From assembly GCA_002730555.1 (NCBI GenBank), contig PCAM01000003.1, positions 1-64,000 of the forward strand: a DNA stretch of 64,000 bases, in the 5' to 3' direction. Position numbers and translations under genes: made by a program. Source of the DNA: Chloroflexota bacterium. GTDB taxonomy: Bacteria > Chloroflexota > Dehalococcoidia > Lucifugimonadales > Lucifugimonadaceae. Below, one piece after another: positions 12,493-55,900 of the stretch (position 1 is the first letter of the stretch; each line of letters begins with the position of its first letter). The notes beneath the pieces were generated by a model. It saw nothing but the letters and a program-made list of their open reading frames with translations, was not told the origin of the DNA and did not search any database.

Positions 12493-12520
12493 TTGAAATA
12501 ACGGGCCCTAGGTCTACAAT
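12493..12520 (+). promoter_or_regulatory. Sigma-70-type promoter in the gap after the amidohydrolase
   Basis: TTGAAA (12493-12498) and TACAAT (12515-12520) are separated by 16 bases, close to the ideal housekeeping promoter. The predicted start is near 12527. No gene in the main reading frames begins here; what follows is a structured element and a short ORF, so the promoter implies a dedicated small transcript. Confidence 0.55.
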
Positions 12521-12526
12521 GGCGTT

Positions 12527-12660
12527 ACTGTGAAATACCGATCAGCCATGTGTACTTGTTGTTGTACCACCCGCAGGGGAGGAGTAACCGCGCGCTGACT
12601 GGTTGAGAACCACAGCGTTCTGTGCGGCCCCTGCGGATATGTGATCCCGGGGGTTTTTTT
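12527..12660 (+). ncRNA. Candidate structured small RNA or attenuating leader
   Basis: Downstream of the promoter, CCGCAGGGG (12571-12579) pairs perfectly with CCCCTGCGG (12628-12636). They enclose a second hairpin made of CGCTG/CAGCG and TGGTT/AACCA arms around a GAG loop (12593-12617). Seven T residues follow at 12654-12660. CCCC at 12628-12631 could alternatively pair with GGGG just before the T run, giving a mutually exclusive terminator. I see no match to SRP RNA, RNase P RNA, tmRNA or tRNA. It may be a free small RNA of about 130 bases or an attenuator for the ORF at 12723. Confidence 0.5.
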
Positions 12661-12722
12661 ATTGCCATCCGCTCCCGGGCCAATTCAATCCTGGCACCGG
12701 CACACAGCAGCGGAAACGAACC

Positions 12723-12857
12723 ATGGCTACCACGACACAAATCCCTTCTCCGACCACCGACGAGCGAACCGGCGTGTTGCGCACAAGTTGGAAGCGCACC
12801 GTATCGGCATTTCGTCGCCTTCTCAACGCAGTAGACGGACTTGGAATCGAACCGTAA
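12723..12857 (+). CDS. Possible 44-residue small protein
   Basis: ATG 12723 to TAA 12857 encodes a basic peptide (start MATTTQIPSPTTDERTG, middle WKRTVSAFRRLLNAV) with no recognisable domain. The C-terminal half could form an amphipathic helix. The ribosome-binding site is poor (GGAAACG). In its favour, the frame lies between a good promoter plus structured leader and a strong terminator, so the region is probably transcribed. Against it, the length is short and the codon pattern only moderately biased. The transcript may be non-coding throughout. Confidence 0.3.
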   Translation: MATTTQIPSPTTDERTGVLRTSWKRTVSAFRRLLNAVDGLGIEP

Positions 12858-12884
12858 ACCCGGCTCTCGAACTCCGAATAAAGC

Positions 12885-12917
12885 AATCCCTCGGATATCG
12901 TTCGGGGGATTTTTTTT
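12885..12917 (+). terminator. Rho-independent terminator
   Basis: AATCCCTCG (12885-12893) pairs with CGGGGGATT (12903-12911; one G-T wobble) around a 9-base loop, followed by a run of eight T on the + strand. It closes the small transcription unit that begins near 12527 and lies 8 bases before the stop end of the convergent enolase-superfamily gene. Confidence 0.8.
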
Positions 12918-55546: not shown

Positions 55547-55900
55547 TGGTGGAGACGGGGGAGAGTCGAACTCCCCGTCCAGCTAGGGTTTCGCTTCGAC
55601 GTCTACAAGCTTAGTCGGCGATTTATGATCTCGCCGCCGAGTTCGCTCTCCGTCAGGCTACCTCAGCGGCCAGCCGATGATCTTAGGTCCGCACCAATCG
55701 GCGTCAGGCGGACAGCACCCCGAGTAAGCGTCGCAGCCACCGATCCCCTCAGGGTAAGAACCGGGGCTACGTGGCCGTCTTTAGGCGGCCATAGCGAGTT
55801 GTTTCTCGCCAGTTAATGTTGCGCCAGCGGATTATCGAGGAAGTTGGCGCCCTCGGCTTGCAGTCTGGCGGATACCTCTCTGTCGAAACCACGCGTCCCC
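55547..55900 (-). ncRNA. ssrA: Transfer-messenger RNA (tmRNA)
   Basis: The 5' end GGGGACGCGTGGTTTCGACA (at 55900) pairs with the 3' acceptor side CGTCTCC before ACCA (genome-encoded CCA at 55547-55549). The T arm is GGGAG-TTCGACT-CTCCC. The conserved GCAAGCCGAGG precedes the tag region. The tag ORF at 55810-55781 reads GGC GAG AAA CAA CTC GCT ATG GCC GCC then TAA, i.e. GEKQLAMAA, with the expected alanine-alanine end. About 354 bases, one piece. tmRNA rescues stalled ribosomes; its partner smpB lies 119 bases upstream on the same strand. Confidence 0.95.

Follow-up and report, generated by a model that had tools for sequence, protein, structure and literature searches.

Positions 12493 to 12917 of the window, the 64-kb stretch of Chloroflexota DNA that was analysed, very probably hold a cysteine-responsive, ribosome-mediated transcription attenuator that controls one small gene. 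Comparison with relatives argues strongly for this regulatory reading, and the small protein is likely to be switched on in cysteine shortage. The central element is a leader ORF with a run of cysteine codons at 12530-12598, which does not appear in the initial annotation of this stretch. That annotation had listed a promoter, a 9-bp stem enclosing a two-part hairpin, a run of seven T, a 44-codon ORF and a terminator, all of which are indeed present. Together with the leader ORF they give the following layout.

12493..12520, + strand: sigma-70-type promoter, TTGAAA-16-TACAAT, by sequence match
12530..12598, + strand: leader ORF of 22 codons, GTG start, TGA stop, VKYRSAMCTCCCTTRRGGVTAR, its frame kept in relatives
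12551-12553, + strand: cysteine codon TGT, proposed sensing codon, read in the leader frame
12557-12565, + strand: TGT TGT TGT, proposed sensing codons, read in the leader frame (whole cysteine stretch 12551..12565)
12571..12579, + strand: region 2, putative 5' arm of the antiterminator, CCGCAGGGG, within the leader ORF, by pairing
12588..12627, + strand: inner two-part hairpin of the antiterminator, predicted fold
12628..12636, + strand: region 3, CCCCTGCGG, partner of region 2 (antiterminator) or of region 4 (terminator)
12627..12660, + strand: intrinsic terminator, 11-bp hairpin GCCCCTGCGGATATGTGATCCCGGGGGT followed by T7, -21.7 kcal/mol
12649-12653 and 12654-12660, + strand: G stretch GGGGG and T7
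12668..12714, + strand: inverted repeat TCCGCT (12668-12673) / AGCGGA (12709-12714) in the 5' UTR of the small ORF
12723..12857, + strand: regulated gene of 44 codons, ATG at 12723 to TAA, MATTTQIPSPTTDERTGVLRTSWKRTVSAFRRLLNAVDGLGIEP
12885..12917, + strand: intrinsic terminator closing the unit

By composition alone, much of this unit is unexceptional. Promoter-like matches in 3.5 kb number one, against a shuffle mean of 1.0, and terminator-like matches one, against 2.6; the fold energy is unremarkable as well, with z-scores of -1.67 for 12527-12662 and -0.68 for the whole unit. What exceeds chance is the combination of a short CxCC-containing ORF with a hairpin and a T run, found once in the 64-kb window and never in 60 dinucleotide shuffles, together with its conservation in seven of eight genomes of the genus. 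A search of plasmid records gave no match to the unit. The same window also carries a tmRNA gene (55547-55900, minus strand) with the tag peptide GEKQLAMAA.

The leader ORF and its conservation can be read directly from the sequences. Four cysteine codons are clustered in it, preceded by an internal in-frame ATG at 12548. Seven of the eight same-genus genomes have this leader, the host's own counted; the eighth, without a leader match, is 79% complete (G006). The reading frame, the CxCCC run and the position of the stop are kept in all seven loci, the stop codon itself varies among TGA, TAA and TAG, and a 9-nt insertion in two of the seven preserves the frame. Since the leader of G001 has no internal ATG, the upstream start is favoured. 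In every one of the seven loci, 9 nt separate it from the -10 hexamer upstream, which makes a leaderless or almost leaderless mRNA probable. The six relatives have TTGCA(A/T) and TA(C/G/T)AAT upstream of the leader. All six are metagenome assemblies named as Chloroflexi or Dehalococcoidia; their isolate names point to a marine habitat, and the host bacterium is probably marine. Both arms of the inverted repeat TCCGCT/AGCGGA are also present in all seven loci, and this element before the small ORF may add a further level of control, on translation or on the stability of the RNA.

The small gene is, judging by its substitutions, under purifying selection: dN/dS ranges from 0.07 to 0.35 in 20 of the 21 pairs yielding a value, and differences fall at 525 third positions versus 378 first and second positions. 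Its product has no match in Pfam, NCBIfam or PHROGs. A BLASTP comparison of the 44-residue protein with a 40-residue protein of genome G008 gave nothing; in a shuffle test of this relation, none of 5000 shuffles reached the mean score and eight of 5000 the best score, and this test together with a larger profile supports the kinship of the two. The profile was built stepwise, adding the G008 relative and then further small ORFs found with it, up to a final 19 sequences. With it, 29 of the 247 genomes searched in the order give a match to the small protein at E <= 2.6e-7, and 28 of these belong to the host's family; another eight genomes, whose matches are weaker (E 0.001-0.05), were left out of the 29. 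Among 393 genomes from the class, partly the same ones, the profile matches in eight, all of the host's family. A poly-cysteine leader with a T run precedes the small ORF in all 28 cases with full upstream sequence. In the 29th (G149), the contig begins inside the leader, the tail of which is in frame. This copy (L180, G149:C81) is the sole strong match outside the family; it lies near a contig start and closely resembles the family members, and its contig is possibly misbinned. A match in G074 (L143) proved false, the real copy in that genome being L192.

The alternative structures of the leader form two mutually exclusive stems, as the initial annotation had perceived when it noted that the stem and the G stretch before the T run compete for one C run. 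Region 2 lies directly past the cysteine codons and forms nine Watson-Crick pairs with region 3 in its own locus. Region 3 doubles as the 5' arm of the 11-pair terminator that is followed by T7; the terminator hairpin proper spans 12627-12654 (-21.7 kcal/mol) and includes the G stretch before T7. The annotation had named a lack of stem conservation in relatives as a refuting condition and had proposed looking for compensatory changes; the stem is in fact kept in relatives, with altered pairs at several positions. The pairing of regions 2 and 3 over nine bases is kept in all seven same-genus loci, G001 using U-G and G-U. When the 28 small-gene leaders are aligned at the G run, several stem positions display more than one Watson-Crick pair type, up to four, with A-T/G-C, C-G/G-C and G-C/T-A swaps; because the stem placements were chosen for best pairing, this alignment leans towards the stem, and G001 is mis-anchored in it. 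In the RNAalifold consensus of the seven leaders, the terminator is seen along with an upstream fold rich in GU; of the 37 pairs of this consensus, two have changes in both partners. The longest run of Watson-Crick complementarity that the leader ORF has with the 5' arm of the terminator is 8.1 bases on average in the 28 small-gene leaders versus 4.5 bases in codon-shuffled leaders; in 22 of the 28 it is reached by at most 15 of 300 codon shuffles, and six miss this threshold. Among 54 similar leaders before other genes, only four pass it (mean 4.9 versus 4.1). Since the result is mostly negative there, these leaders may use another antiterminator, and the antiterminator of regions 2 and 3 is claimed for small-gene leaders only.

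Thermodynamic modelling backs the proposed switch only in part. The minimum-energy fold is the terminator in six of the seven same-genus loci; in the window's own locus it is the antiterminator (-47.7 versus -45.9 kcal/mol). The effect of a ribosome was considered in an equilibrium model that masks the RNA under the ribosome and ignores folding during transcription. For the own locus, this model gives 0.51 for pairing 2:3 versus 0.34 for pairing 3:4 when the ribosome occupies the second cysteine codon; on the first, third and fourth codons the terminator is favoured (3:4 0.55, 0.86 and 0.86), as it is at the stop (0.91). Only two of the six remaining loci of the genus have a cysteine codon at which 2:3 outweighs 3:4, the second in G003 and the third in G001. 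For the whole set of 28 leaders, the number in which 2:3 comes out ahead of 3:4 is 16 for a ribosome at the first cysteine codon, three for one at the last codon of the first cysteine cluster, nine for RNA without a ribosome and zero for a ribosome at the stop, this zero being fixed by construction. In these counts G058 is a miss, its leader having no GGGG and its region 2 being misplaced by the script. The best modelled switch is that of the leaders of genus g12, with 2:3 values of 0.99, 0.93 and 0.97 on the first three cysteine codons in G018. In the leaders of this genus (L156-L164), cysteine codons flank region 2 on both sides, the second group standing directly before the stop, mostly as ..CCTC* and in two cases as ..HCTC*.

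The proposed course of events can be outlined as follows. Transcription would begin a few bases ahead of the leader start codon, and a ribosome would translate the leader. With an ample supply of charged tRNA-Cys, this ribosome should reach the stop codon, which is located in the 5' arm of the inner hairpin. Because the end of the leader ORF, stop codon included, lies within this hairpin, a ribosome that has arrived there would break the hairpin open; the antiterminator of regions 2 and 3 would be blocked, region 3 would pair with region 4, and RNA polymerase would halt at T7, giving a transcript of about 130 bases. In cysteine shortage, the ribosome would presumably pause on the early cysteine codons and leave region 2 free to capture region 3. 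The terminator would then not form, and transcription would proceed through the 44-residue gene to 12917, giving an RNA of about 390 bases. The small protein would be made under cysteine shortage, and itself contains neither cysteine nor an internal methionine.

The small protein is connected with cysteine because of its leader alone. The 28 small proteins have 34-44 residues and share GLxxE, the ORF finder having required a motif similar to it. Cysteine and internal methionine are absent from all 28, the 44-residue form of the window included; as these proteins are not independent, the absence supports a sulfur-sparing role without proving it. All 28 have an amphipathic stretch, with a maximal moment of 0.49-0.65, and a structure model of the 44-residue form consists of a single helix at 12-39, at a mean pLDDT of 67, which is low confidence. 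The gene has its own terminator at the window. In 13 loci examined, the next gene on the same strand varies and is at least 45 bases away; this distance is 45-108 bases in L157, L160, L161 and L163, where co-transcription with the next gene is possible. Upstream, the same neighbour is present in all six named relatives, a gene that we take to be amidohydrolase-like. One possible role is that of a helical partner, or regulator, of some protein of sulfur metabolism or of the membrane. More specifically, the chances seem evenly balanced that these proteins of 34-44 residues represent a new dedicated effector of cysteine starvation: a peptide that forms an amphipathic helix, lacks cysteine and internal methionine, is produced only when the attenuator opens, and would bind and adjust a sulfur enzyme, a transporter or the membrane.

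Poly-cysteine leaders are also present in relatives before genes of sulfur metabolism. At E <= 1, a sequence model of the seven leaders finds mostly weak matches, spread over 23 of 60 genomes. Among 13 weak matches inspected (L035-L047), six have the layout of poly-cysteine ORF, terminator and gene, the genes being PAPS_reduct (L036, L037), TauE (L038), Cys_Met_Meta_PP (L041), DUF4395 (L042) and a small ORF (L035); L039, L040 and L043-L047 are weak matches without the leader layout. A pattern of cysteine codons and terminator occurs in 80 of 247 genomes of the order, and the reversed pattern in 12. Its output of 124 rows corresponds to 103 places after merging of overlaps. Ten of these were already among the loci analysed, 59 of the other 93 were inspected, picked by eye as mostly leader-like before the downstream gene was seen, and the 34 outside this sample probably include many chance matches in genes. 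A pattern match in G031 (L021) lies inside a longer frame and was taken as chance. Ten of the 59 were dropped: eight whose frame was long or offered no usable start codon, L097, a 9-residue peptide ahead of an MFS gene, and L126, where the contig ends. With five leaders from the sequence-model matches, 54 were kept.

Genes behind these leaders were named by Pfam scans of representatives and, for the rest, by BLASTP single linkage. Eight families lie behind 49 of the 54: Sulf_transp (14), DUF4395 (14), PAPS_reduct (7), AhpC/TSA peroxiredoxin (6), ThiF (5), and NIR_SIR, TauE and Cys_Met_Meta_PP (1 each). DUF4395, to which Pfam assigns no function, we take to be sulfur-linked; by the stricter count that leaves it out, 35 of 54 leaders precede Pfam families with a sulfur or thiol connection. 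The remaining five leaders are L083, L121, L122 (Thioredoxin_9), L123 (RimK) and L125. The leaders LCCCCCC of L121 (G162) and NCCCC of L125 (G229) are followed by terminators and then by ORFs without a Pfam match, possibly further cysteine-regulated proteins. The host's own genome contains a second leader (L078, G000:C21:87300-90800), ...CACACCLIPEGEQS, with a terminator, before a PAPS/APS reductase gene (PAPS_reduct, E 1.9e-41). Counterparts of L078 are present in G005 and G004, and one precedes sulfite reductase in G003. Some small-genome relatives (L094-L118, L127-L130) have two or three poly-cysteine leaders each; those of G050 precede ThiF, sulfur transporter and peroxiredoxin genes. The occurrence of several leaders per genome suggests a set of genes in this order that is read by cysteine. 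The unit of the window had been called an orphan, which is apt for its sole target, a small gene with its own terminator, and not for the unit as a whole, which belongs to this wider class of leaders.

It could be imagined that the switch works the other way round: region 2 would be covered by a ribosome that stalls at the end of the cysteine codons, so that shortage would lead to termination and the small protein would be made when cysteine is plentiful. The geometry lends itself to this, the last cysteine codon starting 8 bases before region 2 and the assumed footprint covering about half of it, and the model lets 2:3 prevail in only 3/28 leaders once the ribosome has moved to the final cysteine codon of the first cluster. 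However, in attenuation, ribosomes short of charged tRNA halt first at early codons, and it is there that 2:3 prevails in 16/28. The existence of similar leaders before sulfur-acquisition genes, which are needed in shortage, and the lack of cysteine and internal methionine in the encoded protein point the same way, and an inverted sign seems very unlikely. A poly-cysteine ORF could act on translation or through Rho, as proposed for mycobacterial cys operons, with the T7 hairpin as a partial or constitutive terminator. Actinobacterial cys leaders have no recognised terminator and Rho has been suggested for them, according to the available text of PMC1262725; the mycobacterial system is called translation attenuation in that of PMC13236596; and in the window a conserved inverted repeat adjoins the small ORF upstream. 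Against this, a hairpin with a T run is present in the leader of all 28 small-gene cases, and in 22 of them the terminator 5' arm is complementary to part of the leader ORF to an extent that codon shuffles seldom reach. Such a mechanism we hold to be a shade less probable still.

Finally, the initial annotation had likened the layout to an attenuator or a riboswitch. The attenuator half is borne out by the exclusive stems sharing a C run and by the upstream stem being kept in relatives. A metabolite-binding riboswitch, or a stand-alone small RNA without a translated leader, would fit a conserved folded RNA with alternative folds ahead of a short gene. Yet the conservation tracks a reading frame, with an in-frame insertion and free exchange of stop codons, and the conserved sequence is explained by the leader ORF with its cysteine-codon run. 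Furthermore, no Rfam family matches at its gathering score in the stretch 12493-12917, in agreement with the annotation, which had recognised no known RNA family; at E <= 5 there are two matches only, both far below their gathering scores. On these two grounds, frame-wise conservation and the Rfam result, the riboswitch was rejected, and any such non-translated RNA is scarcely credible here. Ribosome-mediated transcription attenuation is retained for the unit.

If this holds true, translated leaders with classical terminators read the cysteine supply across an order of uncultured Chloroflexota. The small protein family would gain a physiological context, its own regulator telling when the gene is needed. 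In addition, the codon content of leaders would provide a route for assigning conditions to orphan small proteins of uncultured bacteria.

Among known systems, the closest are the trp-type ribosome-mediated transcription attenuators, with the trp, his, leu, thr and phe leaders. The comparative data argue strongly that the unit is of this type, read by cysteine codons and controlling a conserved small protein without a Pfam match. In common with these attenuators, it has a leader ORF with a codon run for one amino acid, an intrinsic terminator between leader ORF and gene (in all 28 small-gene loci), and an antiterminator that starts within the leader ORF, with 9/9 pairs in the own locus, and that excludes the terminator, the latter being predicted to prevail once the whole leader has been translated. 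In contrast to them, the sensed amino acid would be cysteine, the start codon lies nearly at the putative 5' end, and the regulated gene encodes a small protein without a Pfam match rather than a biosynthetic operon. T-box and S-box elements control sulfur amino-acid genes. The proposed control of the unit resembles theirs in acting at the RNA level, via termination; unlike them, the unit has no such Rfam match and contains a leader ORF instead.

Trp-type attenuation and poly-cysteine leaders are both already known; what is new here is a variant of the trp-type attenuator with cysteine codons. A literature search that covered few subscription papers, on Chloroflexi, cysteine-codon attenuators, leader peptides of APS reductase and small proteins of SAR202, found no cysteine attenuator for Chloroflexota, and the available portion of PMC4833913 does not mention cysteine. 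In mycobacteria, leaderless poly-cysteine ORFs are described as attenuators that respond to cysteine (Canestrari et al. 2020, as cited in the available portions of PMC13236596, PMC9094748 and PMC9031893). As far as these portions go, the mycobacterial ORFs share with the present leaders the shortness, the contiguous cysteine codons and the membership in a class of poly-cysteine leaders before cysteine-tied genes, and probably also the leaderless mRNA. A cysteine-pathway gene behind the leader, as in mycobacteria, does not occur at the locus of the window and does so at L078 (PAPS_reduct). Candidate cys leader peptides without terminators are reported before cys genes of Actinobacteria, and conserved terminator hairpins are given as absent before mycobacterial cys operons, in the accessible part of PMC1262725. 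Within what that part describes, the actinobacterial leaders are similar in being cysteine-run peptides before cys genes, and differ in phylum, in targets and in having neither terminator nor antiterminator. Compared with the mycobacterial ORFs as described in the same limited sources, the leaders studied here belong to Chloroflexota and combine an intrinsic terminator with a complementary putative antiterminator.
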